Assembly: GCF_003838195.1 (NCBI RefSeq)
Contig: NZ_RCBY01000022.1
Location: 1-60,461 of the forward strand
DNA from: Okeania hirsuta
GTDB lineage: Bacteria > Cyanobacteriota > Cyanobacteriia > Cyanobacteriales > Microcoleaceae
Length of the DNA stretch: 60,461 bases
Reading direction: 5' to 3'
The position numbers and the translations under genes were made by a program. The number at the start of each line of letters is the position of its first letter. Position 1 is the first letter of the stretch. Positions 2,342 to 16,327 of this stretch are shown in pieces. Under the pieces are notes generated by a model. It saw nothing but the letters and a program-made list of their open reading frames with translations, was not told the origin of the DNA and did no database searches.

Positions 2342-3085
2342 CTAAATTTCAATAGTAGAAGCAATAAATGCACCGCGTTCGGCCATTTTATATAATCCGA
2401 CATGGTGTGATACTTTCTGTGGATGAATAGCAGTTTTTGGTAAACCTTGCTCTGCTGCCATTTCTGCTGTGAGGTCAAAGGTAGCACAACCTTTTTCATA
2501 TACAGCCACATCTTTTAAAGTAGGCACTAAACCATGATTACGAACCGACAGAATAGTTACAACAAAATCCATCACACAGATATCGGTGCAAATTCCTACC
2601 ACAACTAAGACTTCCAGTTTGTATTCATTTATCCAGTTTAACAATACATTACGCTGAGTATTAACATCAATAGAACCGATAAATCCATTAATACAATCCT
2701 TGGGAACTAATGTTGCGAGGGGATTATCGTGTAACCATTTCAGTTCTGGGACAAGTTCTTCTTCTCCTGTTCCCTTTTCGCAATGAGGTGGATAAGGAGG
2801 TTCTGGTTTCCCTGGTTCGTGGGTATCTAAAAATGCTAAAACTGGCCAACCTCGTTCAACAAAAGTTCTCGCTAGGCGATCGCTTTCTGAAATCATTGTA
2901 GCAATTTGTTCGTTAGGTTCTTGGGGTGCTAAGGGACCAAACCCAACAGTGCAAAAACCATTAAGTACATCTACTACAATTAATCCGGCAGAGCGATCGG
3001 CTATAATATAAGGTCGTGGATCAACAGGTAAAGCAGCTTGAATAGTTGCTAAGGTAGTATCAGGAGTCCCTAGAGTTGTTGTCAT
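2342..3085 (-). CDS. Plant-type nicotinamidase (cysteine hydrolase)
   Basis: Hydrolyses nicotinamide to nicotinate and ammonia, feeding NAD salvage. The 247-residue protein belongs to the isochorismatase/nicotinamidase superfamily. From memory it resembles Arabidopsis NIC1 along its whole length (VVDVLNGFCTVG, EPPYPPHC, KDCINGFIGSI, VVGICTDICV, GCATFDL, HPQ...HHVGLY). The expected catalytic triad is present: Asp39, Lys129 and Cys170, with metal-site candidates Asp87, His89 and His101. It is the last minus-strand gene before nadB and is separated from the PhyH gene by a transposase remnant. The family assignment is firm. The exact substrate is inferred from resemblance and from the NAD-gene context. 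Confidence 0.85.
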   Translation of the reverse strand: MTTTLGTPDTTLATIQAALPVDPRPYIIADRSAGLIVVDVLNGFCTVGFGPLAPQEPNEQIATMISESDRLARTFVERGWPVLAFLDTHEPGKPEPPYPPHCEKGTGEEELVPELKWLHDNPLATLVPKDCINGFIGSIDVNTQRNVLLNWINEYKLEVLVVVGICTDICVMDFVVTILSVRNHGLVPTLKDVAVYEKGCATFDLTAEMAAEQGLPKTAIHPQKVSHHVGLYKMAERGAFIASTIEI

Positions 3086-3964: not shown

Positions 3965-4855
3965 TCACTCTTTGTGGGGCAATCTTCTTAGAAATATACC
4001 TTTCCTTTTATTACCGTCAGTTTCCTTTCCGTGAAATATTTGATCATCAAAAGCTGAACAATTAGCATCTTTTAGTGCAGAGTCTGGTAATTTAGTTAGT
4101 GGTTTATATAAGTGATGTTGTTGTCGTTCACGAAAAATAGGCTCATTAGATCGTGCATTAAAAGTTGAATGTATTAAAGAACGAACTTCATGACTATTGT
4201 TGCCATCAGAACCATGAAGCGTTTTAGCATGAAAAAATAAAACATCACCAGCGTCCATTTCACAATACACCAATTCATGGTTTTCAAAAGCTTTTTCCAT
4301 ACGAACCGGATCACCAGCCACAGAATTACCTCTAGTCACATCATCTAGCCTAGCCATAACGTGGGAACCACGAAGTATCTGCAAACAACCATTAGAAATA
4401 TCATTCTTGTCTAGTGCAATAGAACAAGTAATCATATTAGGGTAAAGGCATCCATCCTGATACCATGCAGAGAAATCAGCGTGCCAATCAACTTTACCAT
4501 CACCAGGTTGCTTGATCACAATTTTTGAGTGCCAGTGGTAACATTCTTCTTCTAATAGTAACTCAATAGCATCAACAATTCTTGCTGTACGAGACATAAT
4601 GCCCAAAAAAGTTTCCCCTAAGTCTGTCCAAGCTGAAACTTTCCAACTCTTGCCGTCCTCATATATTACGGCTGTTTGTGAATTTCCCATAGTAGGATCT
4701 TTTTTCAGGGCTTCTTGAAGAGGTTTAAGCTCTTGTGCAGAGAACATATTTCTGATGATGATAAAACCATCTTTATGAAAACGAGTAACTTCCTCATCAG
4801 TGAGAGGACGAATACTTTTAATTTCTTGATTTGTTTTTACTGTTGTTTGAGCCAT
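3965..4855 (-). CDS. Phytanoyl-CoA dioxygenase (PhyH) family protein
   Basis: A 296-residue Fe(II)/2-oxoglutarate oxygenase of the PhyH family, which hydroxylates (or sometimes halogenates or epoxidises) small molecules. Visible iron ligands are His125 and Asp127 in WHADFSAWYQ and His214 in AKTLHGSDGNNS. Arg225 is the likely 2-oxoglutarate anchor. The N-terminal TDEEVTRFHKDGFIIIRNMF is typical of the family. It lies 170 bp downstream of the flavoprotein gene, on the same strand, at the end of the enzyme operon, so it may act on that pathway's product. The substrate is unknown. The protein appears full length and intact. Confidence 0.85.
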   Translation of the reverse strand: MAQTTVKTNQEIKSIRPLTDEEVTRFHKDGFIIIRNMFSAQELKPLQEALKKDPTMGNSQTAVIYEDGKSWKVSAWTDLGETFLGIMSRTARIVDAIELLLEEECYHWHSKIVIKQPGDGKVDWHADFSAWYQDGCLYPNMITCSIALDKNDISNGCLQILRGSHVMARLDDVTRGNSVAGDPVRMEKAFENHELVYCEMDAGDVLFFHAKTLHGSDGNNSHEVRSLIHSTFNARSNEPIFRERQQHHLYKPLTKLPDSALKDANCSAFDDQIFHGKETDGNKRKGIFLRRLPHKE

Positions 4856-5025
4856 TGTTTAAAAAGTTAAATTATATTTACCCATAGAACTTTAGGCGTT
4901 GCTGATGCGTTGGTATGATTTGTATTTTTTGGCGATTGCTAAACTATATTAATGACAAATATTTGAGATTCTTCAGTTTTGATTTTCATACCTTGATTCA
5001 GCAATACCAATTATAAAGTATAACT

Positions 5026-6547
5026 TTACTGCTTTGCAACATTCCGGCCAGCTATACGACCAAATACAAGGCAGTCTGTTATGGCTAAGGTACTTAATCT
5101 ACAAGCACCATGAACACCACCTGTTACTTCTCCAGCCGCATATAAACCCTTAATTGGTTTCTCCTTTGAATTAAGCACCTGTGCATCTGCATTAATTTTG
5201 AGTCCACCCATTGTATGATGAACCTTTGGGTATAAACGTACGCCATAAAATGGAGGTTTTAATGGTTTGCTACCTTCAAGAATAGGTTTGCCCAATGCCA
5301 CATCACACTGAGTCTCAACATAAGTATTGTATTCAAGTAGTGTTTCACATAAAGTCTTAACAGGGATGTTATATGCCTCAGCTAAAGTCTCTAAAGTCTC
5401 AAATTTTTTCACAACACCACGCCTCAAAGCACTTTTAATACTTTTTCCAGCTAATTCGACTCCTTGGGCATCTGCAATACCAACACTTGGCTGTGAGAGT
5501 TCAAACATGGCATCTGTACAGGTTTTTCTATCTGCTAATTCATTAACAAATCGTTTACCTGTGGCTACATCAACCATAAATCCATATTGGAATACAGCGT
5601 AACTCGCAAAAATTGGAGCTGTACCATAAGATTTCTCGTCAGGCGAAGTCCAAGGGGCAAGTTGAATATAGTTTAAATTGACTGTTTGAGCATCTAGTGC
5701 TACGGCTTGTAACATTCCTTGGGCAGTAGTGTTAGGTATATTCGTATGATCAACTTCAGCATTGAGACGCTGATCATATTTGATTCTGAATGAAATATCC
5801 CCCGAAAAACCACCAGTAGCTAAGACAACTCCTTTTCGGGGGATATTTCATTCAGAATCAAATATGATCAACTTCAGCATTGAGACGCTGATCATATTTG
5901 ATTCTGAATGAAATATCCCCCGAAAAACCACCAGTAGCTAAGACAACTCCTTTTCGGACTTTAATATATTCTAGAGGAAGTGTTGAATTTTTTTGAACAG
6001 ACTGAATAACCACACCAATGATTTCATTCTTTTCATTGGTAAGGAATTCTCTAAAACTTGTATTAGGCTTAATCTTACCATCTAAGCTTTTGAATTTAGC
6101 CAACATGGGTTTAATAATTCCCTTGCCAGAGTCATCACAAGGTGTATAACTACGAGGCATTGAATGCCCACCAAACTGATCTACACGATCTTGAAAACAA
6201 CATCCAATCTCTTCAACGAGCCATTGAAAAACCTCATTTGCTTGATTAGCCAAGATATTTACTAGCTTTTCATCGCAATAACCACGTCCTGCATTTAACA
6301 TATCTTGCCTGAGTAAATCAGGAGAATCAATTAATCCATTTTCACCTTGCAAATTTTGATTAACTATTGCTAAAACTCCATCACTAAATAAAGAATTACC
6401 ACCGCAATGATTTTGCTTTTCTAAAACCATTACGGATGCTCCTACTTCTCTAGCAGAAATGGCGGTGGCTAAACCGGCAAAACCACTACCGATCACAATG
6501 ACATCTATCTCATTATTCCATCTGTCTCTTTTTAAATTCGTCTGCAA
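5026..6547 (-). pseudogene. Fumarate-reductase-like FAD flavoprotein, split by a fold-back duplication
   Basis: Two reading frames (5858-6547 and 5026-5715) are halves of one FAD-dependent oxidoreductase of the fumarate reductase/3-ketosteroid dehydrogenase family. The first half carries the FAD Rossmann motif VIGSGFAGLATAISAREVGA and GGNSLFSDG. The second carries GKRFVNELADRK, the substrate-site His pair in VHHTMGGLKI, and GLYAAGEVTGGVHGACRLS. Removing a 118-bp duplicated insertion (repeat units 5745-5838 and 5863-5956) restores a continuous protein of about 467 residues, the normal length for this family. The insertion shifts the frame and gives an early stop. The family usually reduces or oxidises the C=C bond of dicarboxylates or enones; the substrate here is unknown. 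The gene starts 6 bp after the TauD-like gene. As written it is broken; if the insertion is an artefact it is intact. Confidence 0.85.
5745..5956. repeat. 118-bp direct duplication with fold-back core in the flavoprotein gene
   Basis: A unit of about 94 bp (5745-5838) recurs at 5863-5956 with a 118-bp offset. The 24 bases between (5839-5862), together with flanking bases, are the reverse complement of part of the unit (gatattt...caaatatgat). The structure is copy, inverted piece, copy, like the fold-back at the window start. Confidence 0.9.
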
Positions 6548-6553
6548 CTCTCT

Positions 6554-6956
6554 TTATTTCAATATACTCACAAACATTTGACGTGGTCCTTCAAAAGACA
6601 TCCTTCCATGTTGGACTAAGAGATTATCTAAGATTAATACATCTCCTTTTTGCCATTGAATTGAAACAGCACTTAGCCATATTTTTTGGCGGATATGAGC
6701 TATTAAATATAGCTCCATACTTATGCAAAACCTCTTCAATCCAAAATTCTGTTTCTTTTACCCATTCTTTTATAGAAATATTTTTAGCAGAAGAATTAGA
6801 TATTGGTTGTAAAACTAAAGGAAATGTTTCTGTCGGATTTTTGGAAATATGAGATGGCATGGATGGATGATCTGAACCCGGAAGAAAGGAACGATTTGAC
6901 AATTTTACGGGGACTTGAGAGGATTTAAGTGCGGTAGATGAAACTAAATTTTTCAT
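6554..6956 (-). pseudogene. TauD/clavaminate-synthase-like oxygenase with internal deletion
   Basis: The N-terminal frame (6624-6956) reads like the start of a TauD-family 2-oxoglutarate dioxygenase (PVKLSNRSFLPGSDHPSMPS ... WIEEVLHKYGAIF). Another frame (6554-6739) carries its C-terminus (VSIQWQKGDVLILDNLLVQH then GRMSFEGPRQMFVSI), including the distal iron-ligand His and the 2-oxoglutarate-binding Arg. About two thirds of a normal protein of roughly 330 residues is missing, including the HxD motif, and the two ends meet near 6720 in different frames. As written it cannot be active. It sits in the operon between the MmgE/PrpD and flavoprotein genes. Confidence 0.75.
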
Positions 6957-7004
6957 GTTTATTTTGATTTCCTTTATTAAAGATAATTCTAGATTATTCT
7001 TGTC

Positions 7005-8321
7005 TCAAGAAGGTTGATTCATCAATTCAAGCAGACTGCTTACATTTGATAAACTTATGCAATTCCAAACCATTTCCTCCAAATCAGTTGCTCGTTTTTC
7101 TGACAACTCACCTTTGGTTAAAGCTCGAAACTTTTCTTTTAATTCTTCATCCGTGGGTGGCTCAGTTGATGCCCATTTTTCCTCAATATCACCAGAATCA
7201 TAAGTCATTCCACTGTATGTTTTGATAATTACCCTTGCAAATCGCTGATTGGGATAAATACTGGTAAATTTTTCTTCTTCAATAGTCTCTATACAATCAT
7301 ACAAATGAGCAACAATATCACTTTTAAATGCGGCTTCAAATGTTGTTGCTCTGCCTAATTCACCATAAACGAGTATAGCCGCCACTGCAAATTTGAGGTT
7401 AAACTGAGCTTCCTCGGTATTTTTGGGCATAGGCATATTTCTTTCCTTGGTTGCCACAGCAAAAGAATGAACTTTGATAGACGTAATACTTTTAAAATCT
7501 TCTTTCAGATTATCTCTAAGTACTAATGCCGCATCCATACCTGCTTGCATCCACCGACAAACGGTATAAGGTTTGTAATAAGATTTAGATAATTGCCAAT
7601 GTTGTCCTAAATCATCCCAAATATCGGCTACTTCTTTTTCCTCGATATTGAAAGTGGGCGCTCCTGTAAAACCTTGTCTAGCTAACAATGCAGAGGTAAC
7701 CCCTTCCATTGCTGCCCAACCAGCACCAGTTCTCACCATAGTGGGATAACCAACGGTTTTGGGAATGGGTGCAACAGGGGCTACATATTCAGCTATACCA
7801 AGAGCGTGTTCCGTTTCAGAGGGACTCAATGATAACAGACGAGATGCGATCGCCGCACTACCTATAATATTCCAAGTACAAGCGGTATGAGCTTTACTAC
7901 TATCTCTCTTATTTAAAGCTATTCCTGCTCTGAAAGCTATTTCAAAGCCCATAATCCATGATTTCAAAAGTTCCTTTCCTGTAGCATTGGGGGTAACTGT
8001 AGTTAATAAAGTAGCTAATAAAGTAGCCCCAGCTGTACCCCTAGCGAGGGGATGTCCTCCATAAATACCCATAGCATCGGTAGTCATCCCATTAGCAAAT
8101 ACTGCCGCAGGTAGAGATACTTCCCTACCATCAAGCCATAAAAACCCGCCTTTACCACCATAAGTCGCCACTACATATTCATTCACAATGTGGGAAAGTT
8201 TGGTGTTGTGACCAATTATTGCCGCTCCCAAAGTATCAATTAAGCTACGAATTCCTTCTCGTTGGATTGCTTCTGGAATATCTTCTAACTTAAGTTGATG
8301 AATAAAATTGATTACTTGCAT
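7005..8321 (-). CDS. MmgE/PrpD family protein
   Basis: A 438-residue protein of the MmgE/PrpD fold, whose known members dehydrate 2-methylcitrate, decarboxylate cis-aconitate or epimerise iminodisuccinate. Family features seen are LIDTLGAAIIGH near the N-terminus, AVFANGMTTDAMGIYGGHPLA, ACTWNIIGSAAIASRLL, EHALGIAEYVAP and a C-terminal RFARVIIKTYSGMTYDSG. The length is normal. It lies 16 bp after the DRE-TIM aldolase-like gene. Given that neighbour, a branched tri- or dicarboxylic acid is a plausible substrate. That is inference, since the family is chemically diverse. Confidence 0.85.
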   Translation of the reverse strand: MQVINFIHQLKLEDIPEAIQREGIRSLIDTLGAAIIGHNTKLSHIVNEYVVATYGGKGGFLWLDGREVSLPAAVFANGMTTDAMGIYGGHPLARGTAGATLLATLLTTVTPNATGKELLKSWIMGFEIAFRAGIALNKRDSSKAHTACTWNIIGSAAIASRLLSLSPSETEHALGIAEYVAPVAPIPKTVGYPTMVRTGAGWAAMEGVTSALLARQGFTGAPTFNIEEKEVADIWDDLGQHWQLSKSYYKPYTVCRWMQAGMDAALVLRDNLKEDFKSITSIKVHSFAVATKERNMPMPKNTEEAQFNLKFAVAAILVYGELGRATTFEAAFKSDIVAHLYDCIETIEEEKFTSIYPNQRFARVIIKTYSGMTYDSGDIEEKWASTEPPTDEELKEKFRALTKGELSEKRATDLEEMVWNCISLSNVSSLLELMNQPS

Positions 8322-8337
8322 TTTTAATGTCAGAGAT

Positions 8338-9324
8338 TTAAACAGTAACTTCTTGTGGTTGTAAAATTTCTTCTATTGTCTTGTAACGTTTCCAAGGCAA
8401 TTGTTGTAAAAAATCGATTGTTGTATTCCCATAACGTTCTAACAGAGGGGCTACCCATAATCCTGAAAGATTTTTACTACCTGCGAGGTATTGTAAATAT
8501 CTTTGTTCAGGTAAAACAGGAACTTGGAGTATATGGAAAAGAGATTTGAGATGTTCATATTGATATAACTTCTCATTGTGAAAATGTTCCACGATAGCTA
8601 AAGCTTGATCAATTTTAGTATTACCTGCACCTAAACCATAGCCATTAATAGAACCATCAATTATAGTACATCCTGCTGCCATCGCTGCATGAGAGTTAGC
8701 AGAAGCCAAACCTAACATATCATGAGCATGAAAACCTAATACCCCATCCCATTCTTGACGTGCAGATTTGATAAAAGAAAAAACTTCATCGGGTTGTGCT
8801 GCACCCCTAGAATCAGCAAAATAAAATATATCAAATACCTCTTTTGCTGTGGCTGCTAATTTAACTGCGGATAATAATTCATCAGGGGTATAGACTGTAA
8901 AATTAGCAAAATTCAAGCTAGATGATATACCTAATTTTTTTATTTTTTCAGCTATCTTTATTGCCAAAGGAATTTCTTCTTTTACACTTACTACAATACG
9001 AATCAGATCAAGAAATTCACCCCTTGAATCTAATATTTCATCTACTTTTTCTTCGTAACATCTCAACATTCCACCAACAGAGGCGGAGTTAACTTTTTCT
9101 TTTAAACTAGCTAATAAGGATGATGGACAAGTAGCAGTAAGCATACTTTCAGGATCTTCACTCAGATAACCAACTTCAATCACATCTACACCAACTTTAT
9201 CCATTCCAGTAACGACTTGGAAAACCTCACTTTCAGAAAAGTCCCAATTGTTAAGGAAACCTGCATCTCTTAAGGTTACATCTATAGCACTATGTTTTTG
9301 TAAAAAATTCATTTTTGATAACAA
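8338..9324 (-). CDS. DRE-TIM metallolyase (HMGL-like aldolase or synthase)
   Basis: A 328-residue TIM-barrel protein of the HMG-CoA lyase/4-hydroxy-2-oxovalerate aldolase/homocitrate synthase superfamily. The N-terminal motif is IDVTLRDAGFLNNWDFS (the DRE-like TLRD segment). The divalent-metal HxH lies in GFHAHDMLGLASAN, followed by DGSINGYGLGAGNTKID. These enzymes make or cleave C-C bonds next to a keto acid. Short relatives like this occur in polysaccharide and natural-product clusters. It starts 18 bp after the HpcH-like gene, so two different aldolase folds are made together. Its substrate is not predictable from sequence alone. Confidence 0.85.
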   Translation of the reverse strand: MLSKMNFLQKHSAIDVTLRDAGFLNNWDFSESEVFQVVTGMDKVGVDVIEVGYLSEDPESMLTATCPSSLLASLKEKVNSASVGGMLRCYEEKVDEILDSRGEFLDLIRIVVSVKEEIPLAIKIAEKIKKLGISSSLNFANFTVYTPDELLSAVKLAATAKEVFDIFYFADSRGAAQPDEVFSFIKSARQEWDGVLGFHAHDMLGLASANSHAAMAAGCTIIDGSINGYGLGAGNTKIDQALAIVEHFHNEKLYQYEHLKSLFHILQVPVLPEQRYLQYLAGSKNLSGLWVAPLLERYGNTTIDFLQQLPWKRYKTIEEILQPQEVTV

Positions 9325-9342
9325 ATAATTATATTGATCGCT

Positions 9343-10155
9343 TTAGTCAACTGAAGCAACTAATTTTTTCTTGGTAATTTCAACTCTGGATTGATAAAAA
9401 TCATTCCTTTGAGGATTCAAGTTTTTAAGACTTTCATAATATGCTATTTCTGTATTTAACATCAATCTTACACCTTCAGATAAGTCTTGACACTTATCAA
9501 TATTCAGTAAAAAATTAATAGTATTCAAATGATCCGCTTGGAACTCATTCTTGATAGAAAGAGCAGTACGAGGATTTACAAAACCTCCCACAGAAACACT
9601 TTTCCCTTTTTTATGTACTGCATCAATGATTTTTTTGCATATTTCTTGTACTTCTGGAGCGTCAACATTTTGTATTCCCATTGAATTTGATAAATCCAAG
9701 CGTCCTAACACTAGCATTTCTAGTTCATCAAAATAGGGACTATTAAGAATGATGTCAAGATTATTATAAGTCTGAATTGATTCTATCATCATAGCTAGTC
9801 TGGGCTTTTTATGATGTTTCTGACAAATTCCTTTAGTAATTGTAACAAACTTTTCCAAGGCAAACTCAGACTCTACCATTGGAGCTAAAAAAGATTCTAC
9901 TCCAATCTCTAGCAAATTTCTAATTTCTGTTCTTGCTTCAACTCCACCAACTTTCATTAATACGGGTATATCATGGCTTCCTAATTGCTTGAGGTAAGCA
10001 ATTTCTTCTAAGTCCATATTTTCCCATTCTGAACCAGCTTTAAACATTCTTAAACCGTAAGAGTTATAAAGCTCATCAACCATTATATTTAAAGTTTTAG
10101 TCTCTAAATCTAGTGATTTTTTCAGATCCAGTTCAGTTTTTTTCATCGCTTTCAT
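9343..10155 (-). CDS. HpcH/HpaI aldolase/citrate-lyase family protein
   Basis: A 270-residue class II aldolase-like TIM barrel. The metal-binding Glu is in LAMMIESIQTYNN and the Asp in LVLGRLDLSNSMG, as in HpaI and citrate-lyase beta proteins. The Arg that HpaI uses to hold pyruvate falls in a segment that reads PVLMKVGGVEAR here, with Lys near that place, so the substrate may differ. The family condenses or cleaves pyruvate-type keto acids with aldehydes or acyl-CoA. Start and stop lie within 4 bp of the upstream gene, indicating tight co-transcription. Metal-site conservation argues that it is active. Confidence 0.8.
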   Translation of the reverse strand: MKAMKKTELDLKKSLDLETKTLNIMVDELYNSYGLRMFKAGSEWENMDLEEIAYLKQLGSHDIPVLMKVGGVEARTEIRNLLEIGVESFLAPMVESEFALEKFVTITKGICQKHHKKPRLAMMIESIQTYNNLDIILNSPYFDELEMLVLGRLDLSNSMGIQNVDAPEVQEICKKIIDAVHKKGKSVSVGGFVNPRTALSIKNEFQADHLNTINFLLNIDKCQDLSEGVRLMLNTEIAYYESLKNLNPQRNDFYQSRVEITKKKLVASVD

Positions 10156-10159
10156 AATT

Positions 10160-11065
10160 TTAAAAATTTCTCAAATAATTCGTAAGAGTCTCTACAACCA
10201 TTTTAATTCTTCGTGTAAAGGATTCTTTAGTATACCAACCACGACGAGGTGTAATGATTAGATTAGGAAGTTGAAAATATTTTTCATCTTCACTCAGTAA
10301 ATCTACTCCAGCATAGGATAATTTGCCATCTTCCAAAGCCCACTTCAAAGCATTAAATTCGATCAATTTATCAGGAGAAATATTAATCAATATAGCTCCT
10401 TTTTTGATTTGGGAAATATTCTGAAAATTTATGATATTCTTAGTATCTTGGTTTAAAGGTAGTGTCAGAAAAATCACATCACTTTCTGATAGTAAGGTAT
10501 TCAAATCTGTCTGTATCCCTAAACTGGTAGTCAGCTGACTTCTATTACTATACTTAACTTTCATTTCAAAACCTTGAAGTATTTTAGCAATTCTTTTCCC
10601 AATATCACCCATTCCTATAATGCCTACTTTTTTGCCAGATAATTCCATACCTTGATGTTCAAACAATTGAAAGTCACCCGATCTGACTTTAGTATTAAAA
10701 TCAACAATTCTTTTAGCTGCCGAAAGCATTAAAGCTACAGCATGTTCAGCAACTGATGCACCTGTATATTTGGGAGTGTTTACAACTTTTATGTTGTTTT
10801 GGTGACAATATTCCCGATCTATATAACTGGTTTCCGTTGTTGTTGCCAGTATAAATTCCAGTTGAGGAAGTTTTGATAAATTACTTGCATCTAAATTCAT
10901 GAAAGTTGTTATCAAAATTTCTGTATCATTATGGGTCTCTAATATTTTTTCTAGGGAAAATGAACCAGAATTATCCTGATACCAAACTACATTCGCATGA
11001 GAAAGATGATTGAATATATCTTCTGGATAAGGCTCTCTATTATTTAAAAATAAGCATTTTTTCAT
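10160..11065 (-). CDS. D-2-hydroxyacid dehydrogenase-like protein lacking catalytic Arg and His
   Basis: A 301-residue protein of the D-isomer-specific 2-hydroxyacid dehydrogenase family. The NAD-binding motif GIIGMGDIGKRI is intact, and the flanking VVNTPKYTGASVAEHAVALML is typical. The usual catalytic Arg of the LIN-x-x-RG motif is replaced (ILINISPDKL, Pro231), and the catalytic His of TPH is Arg274 (IITPRRGWYTKES). The acidic region GVDLLSEDE is still present. Ordinary hydride transfer to a 2-keto acid is therefore doubtful, and it may catalyse a different reaction or be non-catalytic. Its first base overlaps the last base of the methyltransferase gene upstream. Confidence 0.85.
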   Translation of the reverse strand: MKKCLFLNNREPYPEDIFNHLSHANVVWYQDNSGSFSLEKILETHNDTEILITTFMNLDASNLSKLPQLEFILATTTETSYIDREYCHQNNIKVVNTPKYTGASVAEHAVALMLSAAKRIVDFNTKVRSGDFQLFEHQGMELSGKKVGIIGMGDIGKRIAKILQGFEMKVKYSNRSQLTTSLGIQTDLNTLLSESDVIFLTLPLNQDTKNIINFQNISQIKKGAILINISPDKLIEFNALKWALEDGKLSYAGVDLLSEDEKYFQLPNLIITPRRGWYTKESFTRRIKMVVETLTNYLRNF

Positions 11066-11679
11066 TATTTTTTACTTTCAGGAATAGCAAATACCCAGTA
11101 ATGTGCGTTTGATTCCTCTCCTAAATAAGGTTTATTCATTCTGCAATCTATTAATTTTAATTCTCCAAGTTGCTCTAATTCTTTATAATAACCTTCAAAA
11201 TTATAAGTCTCACAAAAAACCAATCTTGTACTCATTAAAATTATGCCTCCTGGTTTTGTTACTTCCATCAGCCATCTTAATGCAGTCGGCTTTACTAAGT
11301 CAAATGAAAATACGCCACAACAAATAGTTAAATCATATTGATGATGGAAAAAAAAGGGTGGTTTTTTATTCAAATCACACCAACCCATCAAGTATTGATA
11401 TGCGCCTGTTTCATAGGCTAACTTTACCATCTCATGAGAAAAATCTACCCCATCAATATAAGAAAATCCCTCTTTGCGTAATTTAACTCCAAGCAAACCT
11501 GTACCACATCCGGCATCTAAAACCTTAAGCTCAGATTTGTTACTGTAATCTATTACTTGCTGATTTACAACTTCCATGAGATATTCTACGATGTAGCTTG
11601 GAGCATAATAATTTCTATTTTTAACATCTACATTGTATGTGGAAGCCCACTTATCATATCGTTCTTGGTGATTGATCAT
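11065..11679 (-). CDS. Class I SAM-dependent methyltransferase, METTL27-like
   Basis: A 204-residue methyltransferase. The SAM-binding motif I is VLDAGCGTGLLG, motif II is IDGVDFSHEMVKLA, and a post-motif reads DLTICCGVFSFD. The C-terminal ending AHYWVFAIPES resembles the METTL27/WBSCR27 type. It is the second gene of the enzyme operon, 43 bp after the enolase-superfamily gene, and overlaps the next gene by one base. The substrate is probably the small molecule made by the operon. Methylation of O or N cannot be told apart from sequence. Confidence 0.85.
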   Translation of the reverse strand: MINHQERYDKWASTYNVDVKNRNYYAPSYIVEYLMEVVNQQVIDYSNKSELKVLDAGCGTGLLGVKLRKEGFSYIDGVDFSHEMVKLAYETGAYQYLMGWCDLNKKPPFFFHHQYDLTICCGVFSFDLVKPTALRWLMEVTKPGGIILMSTRLVFCETYNFEGYYKELEQLGELKLIDCRMNKPYLGEESNAHYWVFAIPESKK

Positions 11680-11721
11680 CTATATTATATGTTGTTTAGA
11701 AAATACTTTTAGAAAAAATTA

Positions 11722-12837
11722 CTATGATTTAGTATAAACGGCAATGGGTTCACCTAATATTTCCATAATCGGTTCTATGCCTAAACCTGGTGTTTCTGGT
11801 GGAATACCTGTACCCTTTTTGTAAGTATAGCCACCTTTGGCAGGAATGACGGTATGTAATCTAGTAGAATCTGAAGTCGCTAAACGATATCTGAGGGGGG
11901 TAGCAACGGCTAAATGTATCGCACCTGTGCCTCCTATGACGCTACCGCCTGTTTCTTCTATATTCATACGAAGTCCAGTGGCCAGACAAAAATCTCGCAT
12001 TTGACGGGCTTTAGTTAACCCTCCAACTCTTCCAATTTTAATATTGATAGCTTGTGCCACACCTTCTCGTTGAGCCCATAATAAATCTTGAAAAGTGTGA
12101 ATGCACTCATCTAAAATAATGGGGTGTTGAGTTAGGCGACGCACGGTTAAACATTCTTCCAATGTTTCACAGGGTTGCTCAAAATATACTGTTTTATCAT
12201 TGATAGAATTCATAATTTGAATAGCATGATCTGGCAACCAAGCACGATTAGCATCTATGGTAATCTTTTCCTGTGGCTGTAATTCTGCCATGATTGCTTG
12301 AATACGGGCAATATCAAGGGAAACCTCCCCACCAATTTTAGGAGAAAAAATATGATATCCTTGATCTCTTCGTTGTTTGAGATCGGCAACCATTTCTTCT
12401 GGTGTACCATTGGCAAAAGCCCCTATTAAATCAGCGTGTTCGCTAAAACGTCCTCCCAACAGTGTATAGAGGGGCAAATTAGCATATTTACCTAATATAT
12501 CCCAACAAGCTACATCAATAGCAGACTTGACATATAAATGTCCTTTGAGAGTTAAGTCCATAAGATGATTTATGTTCTCTAACTCAAGGGGATTAGCTCC
12601 TATAAGTATAGGAGCTAATTGAGCCATTCCTGCCTTTATTCCTCCAGCAAAAGCAGGTAAGTAAGATTGTCCAAAAGGACAGGACTCACCCCAACCTACG
12701 ATACCATCACTGGTTGTAATAGCGACAATAATGCTGTCCATTTTGTCCACAAATAAACGTCCACCTGAAATTCGATATGGCTTAATTAATGGTAATTCTA
12801 CTTCGTAAATATTGATCTCACAAATTTTAATTGTCAT
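11722..12837 (-). CDS. Mandelate racemase/muconate lactonizing enzyme family protein
   Basis: A 371-residue enolase-superfamily enzyme. The capping domain reads GWGESCPFGQSYLPAFAGG. The barrel carries the first base Lys in FSPKIGG, metal ligands Asp (ITIDANRAW), Glu (YFEQPC) and Asp (ILDEC), and the second base Lys in INIKIGRVGG. The pattern resembles, from memory, the proline-betaine/hydroxyproline-betaine epimerase and cis-3-hydroxy-L-proline dehydratase group (GWGE-CP-G, IGANPL). Such enzymes remove the alpha proton of an amino or hydroxy acid. It is the first gene of the operon. The residues for catalysis are all present. The precise substrate is unknown. Confidence 0.85.
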   Translation of the reverse strand: MTIKICEINIYEVELPLIKPYRISGGRLFVDKMDSIIVAITTSDGIVGWGESCPFGQSYLPAFAGGIKAGMAQLAPILIGANPLELENINHLMDLTLKGHLYVKSAIDVACWDILGKYANLPLYTLLGGRFSEHADLIGAFANGTPEEMVADLKQRRDQGYHIFSPKIGGEVSLDIARIQAIMAELQPQEKITIDANRAWLPDHAIQIMNSINDKTVYFEQPCETLEECLTVRRLTQHPIILDECIHTFQDLLWAQREGVAQAINIKIGRVGGLTKARQMRDFCLATGLRMNIEETGGSVIGGTGAIHLAVATPLRYRLATSDSTRLHTVIPAKGGYTYKKGTGIPPETPGLGIEPIMEILGEPIAVYTKS

Positions 12838-13220
12838 GTTTGAATTTTGTTGTTAACTCAAAAATAATAGCTTAAATCATTGACTAAAACTTAAGTAAGA
12901 AAGTGTTCAACAATTAATAATTAATTATTATTGAAGAAGGAGACAGGAGACAGCTATACTGGAGACAGGAGGAAAATTACATGGGGATTCTAACCCCAAG
13001 TAATTTTGAACACCGTGTAGACGGTGGGGTATTAAACCCACAAAGAAAATGATAATTAATTATAATATCATGTCCGGATAATTAGTGATCAAAAAAACTT
13101 TCTCCTTTTCCTCCTCTTTATTCTTTCTTCTTCTTTCTTCTTCTTTGTTGACTTCTGACTCCTGACTCCTCTGTCATTTATTTATAACTGGTAAATTCTG
13201 TTGAGGTCAATTTGACCACT
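12838..13220. other. Promoter-side gap of the enzyme operon
   Basis: This 383-bp gap contains a GGAGACA-type heptamer run near 12940-12972, small hairpins (ggggattctaacccc at 12982) and the family-C element at 13066-13195. Any promoter of the operon must lie here, but I could not recognise convincing -35/-10 boxes. Confidence 0.5.
13066..13195. mobile_element. Family-C inverted-repeat element (one end degenerate)
   Basis: The left end is tatcatgtccggataattagtgatc. The right part has TTCTTCT and TGACTCC heptamer repeats and ends near ttataactg, which matches the inner end region of the copy at 29750-29870 in reverse. It abuts the truncated 3' end of the methyltransferase pseudogene. Confidence 0.65.
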
Positions 13221-13924
13221 TCATTGAACCCTTGTCTGTACTTCTTCCCCAAAACGTCGATAATGAATTGGTACATTTTGAGAAAGATCAATAAAATGTA
13301 GTTCCTCAAAACCAAACTCTTTTACTGTTTGACTGTAAAACAGATAAGACCCAATATCACTAATTCCCAGACGGTCAAAAGCAGGTTGCAATGCTCCTGG
13401 GGGCAAATTTCGCTTTGCATGGGGTCAGTAAAAATTAATTCGCCTCCCGGTTTTAATATTTTTTTAATTTCTGGGAAAACTAGACAGCGATCGCCACTAT
13501 GCACAATGGCATCCTGAGACCAAACTATATCAAAGGAGTTATCTGCATAGGGGATATCCTCAAAACTTCCTTGAGTAACTTCTACCAAGTGGCTTAAGTT
13601 TTGTTCTTGATTAAGTTGACTGTTGCGTTGATTTTGCAACTGGCTTAAATTGAGACAACACACGGAACAGCCATAAGTTTTAGCCAAATACCTAGCTGCC
13701 CCTCCATATCCAGCTCCCAGGTCGATGACCCGTGAATTTTGGTCTATTTTTTCTAGAGTTTGGGCAATGGTTTCTAGGGTACGCAGGGACGCATAGTGAA
13801 TTGCTTCGTCTGGTTGGGTGTAGATGCCATCATGAATATGTTCCCCTCCCCAGATAGCTGCATACATTCTGTCGGTTTCGGTGTCATCATAATATTGTTG
13901 GGCAATTTTTACTGCTTCTGTCAT
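13221..13924 (-). pseudogene. Sarcosine/dimethylglycine-type N-methyltransferase, frameshifted and truncated
   Basis: The first 180 or so residues (from ATG at 13924) match the glycine-betaine methyltransferase family: AAIWGGEHIHDGIY, the SAM motif VIDLGAGYGGAARYLA, SFEDIPYADNSFDIVWSQDA and ELIFTDPMQSE. Near 13405 a one-base shift in a run of A/T moves the rest (PPGALQPAFDRLGISDIGSY onward) to another frame, and a second shift near 13230 follows. Full-length relatives have about 277 residues. Here roughly the last 30 are missing, cut where the family-C element begins. It starts 24 bp after nadA, so the two may be co-transcribed. It probably no longer gives a working enzyme. Confidence 0.8.
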
Positions 13925-13948: not shown

Positions 13949-14920
13949 CTAATTAAATGAAAGTTCTAACATCTTTTGAATAGGTTTTAGTGCTTCTACT
14001 CGCGTCTCTTCAGGAATCTCAATTTCTGGTGTTTTATTTTTCATTGCCAGATAAAGTTTTTCCAAAGTATTCAACCTCATGTGAGGACATTCGTTACAAG
14101 CACAATTATTCATCGCTGGTGCAGGAATAAAGTTTTTGCTCGGTGCTTTCTTTTGCATTTGATGAATTATTCCTGGTTCCGTTGCCACAATAAATGTTTG
14201 GTTTTGGTTTTCCTGACAATACTTCAATAAAGCAGTGGTTGAACCAATATAATTAGCATGACGCAACACACTCGGTTCGCATTCTGGATGAGCGATAATT
14301 TCAGCTTCGGGATGCTCTATTTTTAATTGCACCATCTTTTTTTCAGAAAATGTCTCGTGAACAATGCAACTTCCTTCCCACAAAATTAAATCTCGTCCGG
14401 TTTGCTCCATGACATAACGACCCAGGTTCCGGTCTGGGGCAAAAATTATCGGTTGGTCTGCTGGTATTTGCTTAACTATTTTGACTGAGTTGGAACTGGT
14501 GCAGATAATATCGCTCATTGCTTTAATAGCAGCAGTGCAATTAATATAAGAAACTACTATTGCATCAGGATGGACTGCTTTAAATTTGGCAAATTCTTCC
14601 GCTGGGCAACTATCGGCGAGAGAGCAACCTGCATCTAAGTCTGGGAGGAGTACCAGTTTATTTGGGTTGAGAATTTTTGCTGTTTCTGCCATGAAATGAA
14701 CTCCGGCAAAAATGATGACATCAGCATCTGTTTCTGCTGCTTGTTGAGAAAGACCGAGGGAGTCACCTATATAGTCAGCAATATCTTGAATATCCGGTTC
14801 TTGATAATAGTGAGCTAAGATAACAGCATTTAATTCTTGCTTGAGGTAAGCGATCGCTTCAAATATATCGTTAGGTATATTATCTAAAGTTTGGTTAGTT
14901 TTAAGTTGAGTAGCAAACAT
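13949..14920 (-). CDS. nadA: Quinolinate synthase
   Basis: Condenses iminoaspartate (from NadB) with dihydroxyacetone phosphate to give quinolinate, the precursor used by NadC. The 323-residue protein has the A-type fold signatures [39 protein letters not shown] and IAHPECEP. The three cysteines that hold the oxygen-sensitive 4Fe-4S cluster are expected in [20 protein letters not shown] and [11 protein letters not shown]. It is divergent from nadC, with 504 bp between. A HIP1 site lies within the gene. It looks full length. Confidence 0.97.
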
Positions 14921-15424
14921 TATTAAATCTTTCTGTAATTTACTTATTGACCAGTGGTAAGTTTAAGACACTTTAATCAGTCTATTTTATGATAGATTTA
15001 TTAATTATAGTAGAATTCATCAAAAATTGAATTTAGAGTTAGTTATGGGAGAAAAAGTTAACCTTGTTGAGTAAACGAATATAGATTCAAAAAATGGACG
15101 AGTTGATATTTGCTGTGTTAAATATTTTATATCAAATACGGTTAATTGCACATAGAATCTAGTTATATGATAGACATCTCCAATAATAAAAAATCAAATC
15201 AATTATCGCACTCTTATTTCTTTCCCTTTACTCTCTACTCCCTATGCGTGGAGTAGATGTTTAATATCTGTTTATAATTTCTTAAATTACTTGAATATTT
15301 CTTCTCCACTACTCTCCCACTCTCCCACTCCCCTACTCCCAACTATATAATAAGTATTCAACCGGATTTGATATTAGGTGGGAGCTACTCTGCCAGTAAT
15401 TTTGAATAAAATTTCAGTAACAAT
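14921..15424. other. nadA-nadC divergent intergenic region
   Basis: This 504-bp divergent promoter region is half filled by a family-A element (15129-15374) with a family-B element inside. The element ends 51 bp before the nadC start, so it may form part of the nadC leader. No recognisable riboswitch was seen. Confidence 0.6.
15129..15374. mobile_element. Family-A element with nested family-B element
   Basis: The outer ends atatcaaatacgg and ccggatttgatat form an inverted pair. The left end continues ttaattgcacatagaa, as does the copy at 53662. The nested family-B part (15172-15260) starts agacatctcca and contains ctctactccctat. Confidence 0.65.
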
Positions 15425-16327
15425 ATGCAATCTGTTATACCTCCAAACATAATATTAGACAACTTATTAAAAAATTGGCTGCTAGAAGATATTGGCAGGG
15501 GTGATCGCACTACTGCAGGGTTATTTTCAACAGACCAAGTAATTACAGGTGCCGGTTATTGGTTGGTCAAGGAATCAGGAGTTATTGCGGGGTTACCAAT
15601 TGCAGCTAGAGTATTTCAACTTTTGGATGAAAAGGTCAACTTTTTACCTACTGTTACAGAAGGAGAATGGTGCGAGTCGGGTACTGTAATCGCTAAATTA
15701 GATGGGCCTTTAGATAGTTTATTGACTGGGGAAAGGGTGGCCTTAAATCTAGGGATGCGTTTGAGTGGGATAGCGACTATGACTCGTAAATATGCAGATA
15801 AAATTGCCGATCTGTCGGTGCAACTGGTTGATACTCGCAAAACAACTCCAGGACTGAGAATTTTAGAAAAATATGCGACTCAAGTTGGTGGGGCAAAAAA
15901 TCATCGCATGGGTTTGGATGATGCGGTGATGATTAAGGATAATCATATTGCTGCTGCTGGAGGTATTGGGAAAGCGATCGCTAAGGTCAGAGAAACAATA
16001 CCTTATCCTTTAACTATTGAAGTGGAGACAGAAACATTGGCAGAAGTAGAAACTGCTTTGGAGTATCAGGCAGATATTATTATGCTGGATAATATGTCTG
16101 TTGAAGTAATGCAGCAAGCAGTTAAAATGATTAGGCAAAACAATAATCGTATCAAAATTGAAGCTTCTGGAAATATTACTTTAGATACTATTAGAAATGT
16201 GGCTGAAACAGGTGTCGATTATGTTTCTACTAGCGCTCCTATTACTCGGTCAACTTGGTTAGATTTAAGTATGAAGATAGAAAAAAATATTACCAATATC
16301 GCAGGAGGAGGAAGAGGTTTGGAATAG
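15425..16327 (+). CDS. nadC: Nicotinate-nucleotide diphosphorylase (carboxylating)
   Basis: Quinolinate phosphoribosyltransferase makes nicotinate mononucleotide from quinolinate and PRPP, completing the three-gene aspartate route with nadB and nadA. Motifs are LEDIGRGDRTT at the N-terminus, LNLGMRLSGIATMT, VDTRKTTPGLRILEKYA, GGAKNHRMGLDDAVMIKDNH and IKIEASGNITLD, which are the phosphoribosyl and quinolinate binding segments. At 300 residues the length is normal. It starts with ATG at 15425. The C-terminus ends in a Gly-rich stretch (AGGGRGLE) a little beyond the family consensus. Confidence 0.97.
   Translation: MQSVIPPNIILDNLLKNWLLEDIGRGDRTTAGLFSTDQVITGAGYWLVKESGVIAGLPIAARVFQLLDEKVNFLPTVTEGEWCESGTVIAKLDGPLDSLLTGERVALNLGMRLSGIATMTRKYADKIADLSVQLVDTRKTTPGLRILEKYATQVGGAKNHRMGLDDAVMIKDNHIAAAGGIGKAIAKVRETIPYPLTIEVETETLAEVETALEYQADIIMLDNMSVEVMQQAVKMIRQNNNRIKIEASGNITLDTIRNVAETGVDYVSTSAPITRSTWLDLSMKIEKNITNIAGGGRGLE

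Follow-up and report, generated by a model that had tools for sequence, protein, structure and literature searches.

We analyzed a stretch of 60,461 nucleotides from the cyanobacterium Okeania hirsuta (NZ_RCBY01000022.1, contig 135 in an 8.79-Mb draft assembly; hereafter the window), which carries a real and unusual enzyme operon that is not intact here. One of its genes encodes a dehydrogenase homologue with a rebuilt active site (HADH*), and the closest parallels of its products are partly amino- and imino-acid enzymes. The cluster probably makes a small unusual amino-acid-like compound. Our preferred reading, which is tentative, is that marine cyanobacteria exchange the cluster as an accessory island whose product is a small non-proteinogenic amino acid or imino-acid-derived metabolite. 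What we observed directly concerns gene content, linkage, selection, active-site replacements and signs of transfer.

Gene content and linkage of the operon

The operon comprises nine enzyme gene families on the minus strand, running from 12837 to 3965, co-directional and closely packed. They are listed with the short stretch upstream, which is also found in the related genomes SIO2C9 and G305.

12838-12913, minus strand: short upstream stretch that marks the left end of the tract common to the three genomes; it reaches 12913 in SIO2C9 and 12887 in G305
11722-12837, minus strand: enolase-superfamily enzyme (MR_MLE), 371 aa, by Pfam
11065-11679, minus strand: class I S-adenosylmethionine (SAM)-dependent methyltransferase, 204 aa, by Pfam
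10160-11065, minus strand: HADH*, D-2-hydroxyacid-dehydrogenase fold (2-Hacid_dh), putative NADPH imine reductase, 301 aa, SPD and TPRRxWYT motifs
9343-10155, minus strand: HpcH/HpaI-fold class II pyruvate-aldolase homologue, 270 aa, Pfam HpcH_HpaI
8338-9324, minus strand: DRE-TIM (HMGL-like) aldolase homologue, 328 aa, Pfam HMGL-like
7005-8321, minus strand: MmgE/PrpD protein, 438 aa, Pfam MmgE_PrpD
6554-6956, minus strand: remnant of a TauD-like oxygenase, 110 aa, by homology to a piece in G305
5026-6547, minus strand: flavocytochrome-c/fumarate-reductase-type flavoprotein, broken into frames 5858-6547 and 5026-5715, FAD_binding_2
3965-4855, minus strand: PhyH-family Fe/2-oxoglutarate oxygenase, 296 aa, Pfam PhyH

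The intergenic gaps between the enolase gene and the TauD remnant are 42, -1 (an overlap), 4, 18, 16 and 48 nt; beyond the remnant they are 76, 142 and 170 nt, the last of which separates the PhyH gene. The original prediction had described eight tightly spaced genes on the same strand. Strand, direction and the spacing as far as the TauD remnant stood, but the two genes after the PrpD gene are broken and the later gaps are wider. Its family names agree with the Pfam and NCBIfam matches (MR_MLE, methyltransferase, 2-Hacid_dh, HpcH_HpaI, HMGL-like, MmgE_PrpD, FAD_binding_2 and PhyH), and none of the NCBIfam matches listed for the operon proteins reaches the curated cut-off. The operon's MmgE/PrpD protein is the sole match to MmgE_PrpD_N in the window's genome. 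No gene for an uptake transporter or a regulator was recognized between 3965 and 12837. Inspection by eye of the frames of at least 120 aa in 15000-60461 (no Pfam scan) and of those near the operon revealed no non-ribosomal peptide synthetase (NRPS) or polyketide synthase (PKS), as had been claimed for this operon. The SIO2C9 contig with the cluster also has, roughly 33 kb away, a frame that by eye resembles a polyketide ketosynthase (L042:18973-19998).

The distribution of the genes was determined in even samples of the order (388 genomes), the class (388) and the phylum (386), with the window's genome included in the counts. Separate searches of the order with the DRE-TIM protein (hereafter DRE; E ≤1e-30) and with HADH* (E ≤1e-50) returned the identical 10 of 388 genomes, which span seven genera. 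The two genes lie less than 6 kb apart in all nine loci that have both on one contig (831 to 5,800 nt in the eight measured loci, 835 nt in the window). A chance neighborhood is rejected on this co-occurrence; the chance figure of 2e-18 for two sets of nine coinciding ignores relatedness and is not relied on. The linkage of the cluster genes is real, and the scattering in relatives that would have spoken against an operon was not seen. HADH* was present in 2 of 388 genomes of the class sample at 1e-50 and in 3 of 386 of the phylum sample at 1e-70.

SIO2C9, of the same genus, has the same gene order; the products of the seven intact genes are 96-100% identical between the two. G371, of the same family, carries the methyltransferase, HADH*, HpcH, DRE and PrpD genes at 72-84% identity, PrpD being in two frames; only the last 57 residues of its enolase remain, and no flavoprotein or PhyH match was found on its 12,928-base contig. 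In G305, which belongs to another genus, the genes from enolase to HADH* stand at one contig end and those from DRE to TauD on another contig. G003, of another family, has HpcH, DRE, two flavoproteins, PhyH, the methyltransferase, HADH* and an EamA transporter, together with a further 297-aa frame that has no Pfam match and is possibly oxygenase-like by eye. The order kept in SIO2C9, the five genes in G371 and the shared set of ten genomes support the earlier claim of a co-inherited enzyme operon.

HpcH occurs in four and PhyH in three of the ten carrier genomes. The methyltransferase occurs in nine, a number that includes G003, with a weak match (33%), and G034, where the match is split; the short contig of G185 has none. 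In a family sample HpcH was found in 3 of 61 genomes at 1e-15; G305 has no match there because one of its cluster contigs breaks off within HADH* and the other starts within the DRE gene.

A second architecture, present in G034, G084, G130, G141 and G185, consists of the DRE protein, a pyridoxal-phosphate (PLP) enzyme, a flavoprotein, the methyltransferase and HADH*. Four of these five genomes also have dehydroquinase-like and arginase-like proteins, and an FrhB-like protein occurs in G141 and, by eye, in G185. The Pfam names here come from scans of the G141 proteins and one G084 protein, the others being named by eye from frame starts. This architecture shares most of the HADH*/aldolase/flavoprotein/methyltransferase core with the window's cluster. 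The window's methyltransferase is 77.5% identical to the copy in G371 and about 57% identical to those of the second architecture.

The rebuilt dehydrogenase

HADH* has the D-2-hydroxyacid-dehydrogenase fold with its NAD(P)-binding domain, but differs from ordinary members at the active site. In all nine copies the Arg of the R-G motif has given way to SPD, and the His of the TPH motif is replaced by Arg in TPRRxWYT (SCRR in G003). Both the Arg and the His are kept in all seven ordinary homologues (six plasmid homologues and 5aov). They are the catalytic residues of D-2-hydroxyacid dehydrogenases, and HADH* lacks both. The replaced His is followed by WY in all nine copies and in Bsp5, whereas WY occurs in none of the seven ordinary homologues.

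The protein had initially been described as a defective dehydrogenase homologue, a description that we reject. The replacements are common to all nine copies, the HADH* sequences form a clade of their own in the tree (support 100/99), and the gene is under purifying selection. Against G371, the ratio of nonsynonymous to synonymous substitution rates (dN/dS) is 0.22 for HADH*, 0.16 for the methyltransferase, 0.23 for HpcH and 0.15 for DRE, at synonymous rates (dS) of 0.5-0.9. HADH* is a conserved subfamily and not a dying one.

The top PDB match of HADH* was 6p2i both with the single sequence (129.3 bits vs 127.7 for 5aov) and with a profile (172.3 bits vs 168.1 for 1wwk). The entry is entitled 'Acyclic imino acid reductase (Bsp5) in complex with NADPH and D-Arg'. 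Like HADH*, Bsp5 has this fold, has lost the catalytic His and carries WY just after it. A published study describes PunC5/BsP5 as acyclic imino-acid reductases and reports weak imine reduction for them (PMC11876095). A structure model of HADH* (mean predicted local distance difference test score, pLDDT, 81.5) matches the whole dehydrogenase family without preference. Because the proton donor is lost, a Y follows the W and 6p2i is weakly ahead in the searches, we hypothesize that HADH* reduces imines. For such a reaction a catalytic His would be dispensable, since an iminium is already protonated, and the loss of the carboxylate-binding Arg (invariant SPD) together with the new RRxWY motif suggests that the substrate is bound unlike a 2-hydroxyacid.

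The other enzymes and the broken genes

The best solved relatives of the PhyH protein are the leucine hydroxylase GriE (5nch, 77.5 bits), and ectoine hydroxylases (61-64 bits); it also scores 81.3 bits to ectoine hydroxylase TIGR02408, below the cut-off of 336.5. The enolase-superfamily enzyme matches NF043002 over its whole length at 373.4 bits, below the cut-off of 500, and 4mgg at 302 bits. The latter is the enzyme of Labrenzia, from which the window's protein differs by Ser in place of Gln at the first place of the K-x-K position. No proline-racemase-type gene was recognized beside the enolase gene. According to one study, the Labrenzia enolase-type enzyme is a 2-epimerase and dehydratase of cis-3-hydroxy-L-proline (PMC5144071).

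The intact SIO2C9 copy of the flavoprotein scored 236.7 and 213.7 bits to flavocytochrome c fumarate reductase and urocanate reductase. All eight copies (from seven genomes) keep one carboxylate site and the proton-donor Arg. The His, Thr-Glu and Arg positions of the second carboxylate clamp and the proton path are conserved in none of the eight, Ser-Tyr replacing Thr-Glu. The flavoprotein here is too short to accommodate a haem domain. Judging from these residues, the protein is probably not a fumarate reductase but a flavin enzyme whose substrate has a single carboxylate at that position.

The HpcH protein fits the HpaI class II pyruvate aldolases in fold and in its Pfam HpcH_HpaI domain, and a model of it (pLDDT 89.2, four sequences) resembles class II pyruvate aldolases, SbnG and pyruvate kinases. 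All four sequences have a GxEWE stretch with no His there; the missing His is the base of the D-x-E-H motif of class II pyruvate aldolases. The DRE proteins have the metal-site HAH motif in all nine copies, and after TLRD they read A/G-G-F/Y-L-N-x-W, which differs from the base-bearing motif of 4-hydroxy-2-oxovalerate aldolases. Scores to named families fall below cut-off for both the DRE protein (88.3 bits to 4-hydroxy-2-oxovalerate aldolase TIGR03217, cut-off 286) and the MmgE/PrpD protein (18 bits to 2-methylcitrate dehydratase prpD TIGR02330, cut-off 458).

The PLP enzyme found in the second architecture has GntC as its best NCBIfam match in the G141 copy, at 212 bits and below the cut-off of 415. 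The copy has a Ser-Ser pair near its N-terminus, seen without alignment to GntC, and such a pair is described for GntC in a published account (PMC10367076). Likeness to GntC and capreomycidine synthase is confined to this enzyme, which has no counterpart in the window's operon. An arginine oxidase of the MppP/RohP type was rejected as an identity for it, no such chain being named among 25 PDB matches at 1e-20.

Missing from the TauD remnant is a stretch of 656 nt that separates the two aligned parts in G305, and the remnant's 110 residues have no Pfam match of their own. The name derives from the G305 piece (2071-2541 of L016), which scores 55.7 bits to Pfam TauD. In G305 the reading frame also shifts inside TauD, and SIO2C9 has no recognizable TauD match. 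The flavoprotein gene of the window consists of two open frames of 229 aa each, and at the break an exact 95-nt direct duplication with inverted repeats was found (5745-5957). The gene is an intact 482-aa open frame in SIO2C9 and is also intact in G003. The duplication with its inverted repeats may be an assembly artifact, because nadB at the contig end is also duplicated and inverted. The search for the same gene order with intact TauD and flavoprotein genes, which the original prediction had proposed, succeeded in part: SIO2C9 has the order and an intact flavoprotein, but no intact TauD was found.

Probable exchange of the cluster and its proposed pathway

The cluster is 98.7-98.8% identical in DNA to that of SIO2C9, except over 659 nt of the flavoprotein gene, where identity is 96.1%; the flanks are 98.4-99.0% identical on the nadB side and 87-97% on the nadC side. 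Seven cluster genes have a dS of 0.00-0.05 against SIO2C9, compared with 0.006 in the isochorismatase gene and 0.20 in nadC; dN/dS against that genome is 0-0.31 for six intact genes, all at low dS, and not computable for PhyH (dS 0). Between G305 and the window, the cluster is 98.6-99.4% identical and aroB 86%. The tract shared with G305 and SIO2C9 begins 50-76 nt upstream of the enolase gene, and beyond that point the three genomes diverge. From these comparisons the cluster looks recently transferred and exchanged between strains. Since dS is as low in the isochorismatase gene as in the cluster, and the nadB-side flank is so similar, the exchanged tract would be wider than the cluster and extend past it.

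The following genes flank the operon.

359-1465: nadB
2342-3085: isochorismatase-family (nicotinamidase-like) gene
13949-14920: nadA, named by eye
15425-16327: nadC, named by eye

In G323, which belongs to the same genus but has no cluster, nadC, a methyltransferase gene, the isochorismatase gene and nadB follow one another as they do here, and the site is occupied by other genes. The cluster therefore occupies a site that varies, with the nad genes as neighbors and not as members. By eye, the matching site in G323 (L073:5737-10055) has zinc-dehydrogenase-like and gamma-butyrobetaine-dioxygenase-like frames. In the window, 13322-13924 is a truncated sarcosine/dimethylglycine N-methyltransferase homologue of 200 aa (236 of 550 bits), which has 277 aa at the same place in G323. 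The nadB product has 368 aa vs 569 aa in SIO2C9 and contains an internal direct duplication; 56-487 is inverted relative to SIO2C9, and 56-271 is an exact inverted copy of a later part. This rearrangement (56-1465) reflects either template switching or an assembly artifact at the contig end. The nadA gene is the sole nadA match in its genome at 1e-20 and is 75-78% identical to nadA of three other Okeania genomes and G371. SIO2C9 has a 70-aa fragment of the window's type here (94%) and an intact 76% copy elsewhere, which points to exchange or duplication of nadA. Short repeats at 1796-1898 and 15300-15378 have many copies in Okeania genomes among the matches listed, and the 1796-1898 type also occurs in G305.

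For the pathway we infer every reaction and the order of the steps. The HpcH- and DRE-type enzymes would form or cleave a C-C bond involving a pyruvate-like unit, and a dehydratase (the enolase-superfamily enzyme or PrpD) would give an unsaturated or imino intermediate. The flavoprotein would reduce or form a C=C bond adjacent to a carboxylate, HADH* would reduce a C=N bond using NADPH, PhyH (formerly also TauD) would hydroxylate an amino-acid-like intermediate, and methylation would occur at some point. No analysis lends support to the earlier proposals that the methyltransferase acts last and that PrpD adjusts a C=C bond. The accompanying claim that all the families act on keto, hydroxy or dicarboxylic acids holds for most of them, which have such members, but the evidence points equally to amino- and imino-acid chemistry, because PhyH is nearest to leucine and ectoine hydroxylases and HADH* is nearest to Bsp5 by sequence. 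In line with what had been stated at the outset, searches of the open-licence PubMed Central (PMC) literature for the window's set, for the second architecture and for single enzymes turned up no described pathway with this gene set.

Several observations weigh against an exchanged island with amino- or imino-acid chemistry. No aminotransferase or amino-acid oxidase gene was recognized in the window's operon, and both aldolase homologues lack catalytic-base residues. The lead of 6p2i over other dehydrogenases is only 1.6 and 4.2 bits; with the HADH* model, 6p2i is second to glyoxylate reductase in Foldseek and eighteenth, though tied, in a further search. Bsp5 keeps the canonical Arg where HADH* has SPD, and in the tree it stands on a long branch outside the HADH* clade, at an open fork. 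The W of the WY motif is also present in four of the seven ordinary homologues, so that within this set HADH* and Bsp5 are set apart by the Y and the loss of the His alone. As for exchange, the dS comparison has a single flanking control, nadC; downstream, the isochorismatase gene has a dS as low as that of the cluster; and the G305 match could be bin contamination. Furthermore, the pathway may be decaying, since TauD is broken, unrecognizable or absent in all four genomes with the window's cluster type.

Such decay could mean that the cluster is a relic, being lost in this lineage and making nothing in this strain. The TauD remnant and split flavoprotein here, the state of TauD in SIO2C9 (unrecognizable) and G305 (frame-changed), and the truncated enolase, two-frame PrpD and missing flavoprotein and PhyH matches on the 12.9-kb contig of G371 all agree with this. 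However, the seven other genes are full-length open frames, dN/dS is low against both SIO2C9 (six genes, at low dS) and G371 (four genes), and the flavoprotein is intact in SIO2C9 and G003, its duplication here being a possible assembly artifact; we regard a relic as unlikely. That the operon serves NAD or quinolinate metabolism is highly improbable, in spite of nadA, nadB, nadC and the nicotinamidase-like gene around it. G323 keeps the order of its flanks without the cluster, nadB and the isochorismatase gene of G305 lie on a contig apart from the two that bear the cluster, and queries with NadA, NadB and the isochorismatase gave no orthologue-like match in the stretches of the other carriers (L015-L023), where NadB matched only the flavoproteins, at 27-28%. 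The nad genes were accordingly rejected as pathway members.

The remaining alternatives concern the chemistry. A pathway to a nitrogen-free hydroxylated or unsaturated carboxylic acid, with HADH* as an ordinary ketone reductase that has a rebuilt site or as a non-catalytic protein, is somewhat unlikely. Most of the families have members acting on keto, hydroxy or dicarboxylic acids, and the HADH* model fits many ketone reductases at equal scores, but the Arg and His are replaced in all nine HADH* copies and kept in all seven ordinary homologues compared, and PhyH and the enolase are closest to amino-acid enzymes. Catabolism is the usual role of HpcH/HpaI and 4-hydroxy-2-oxovalerate aldolases, of PrpD and of hydroxyproline dehydratases, and a distant Ilyobacter relative of HpcH (29% identity) has as neighbors aconitase, PrpF, a hydroxyacid dehydrogenase and a 2-hydroxycarboxylate transporter. 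These points favor a catabolic operon that degrades an amino-acid-like or dicarboxylic compound, its aldolase homologues releasing pyruvate. We consider it quite unlikely, however, given that no uptake transporter or regulator gene was recognized in the operon, that no listed NCBIfam match reaches its curated cut-off and that the distribution is rare and patchy; two oxygenases and a methyltransferase are also unusual in a catabolic operon.

Biosynthesis of an amino-acid-like compound by an exchanged island remains our preferred reading, and it can be taken further to a possible, though doubtful, proposal. The two architectures would belong to a cyanobacterial pathway family with at least two architectures and a four-enzyme core (DRE-TIM, flavoprotein, methyltransferase and HADH*), making non-proteinogenic amino acids without NRPS or PKS. 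HADH* would be a new class of NADPH imine reductase that has lost both Arg and His, and one branch may start from arginine-like substrates, given its GntC-like PLP enzyme and arginase-like protein. Standard cluster finders easily overlook clusters that have no NRPS, PKS or terpene genes. This one, with its clear conserved core, its signs of transfer and a dehydrogenase with a conserved rebuilt site, provides concrete enzymes for study. If HADH* does reduce imines, the imino-acid reductases, so far few, would gain a group, and the two cluster types would become one pathway family.

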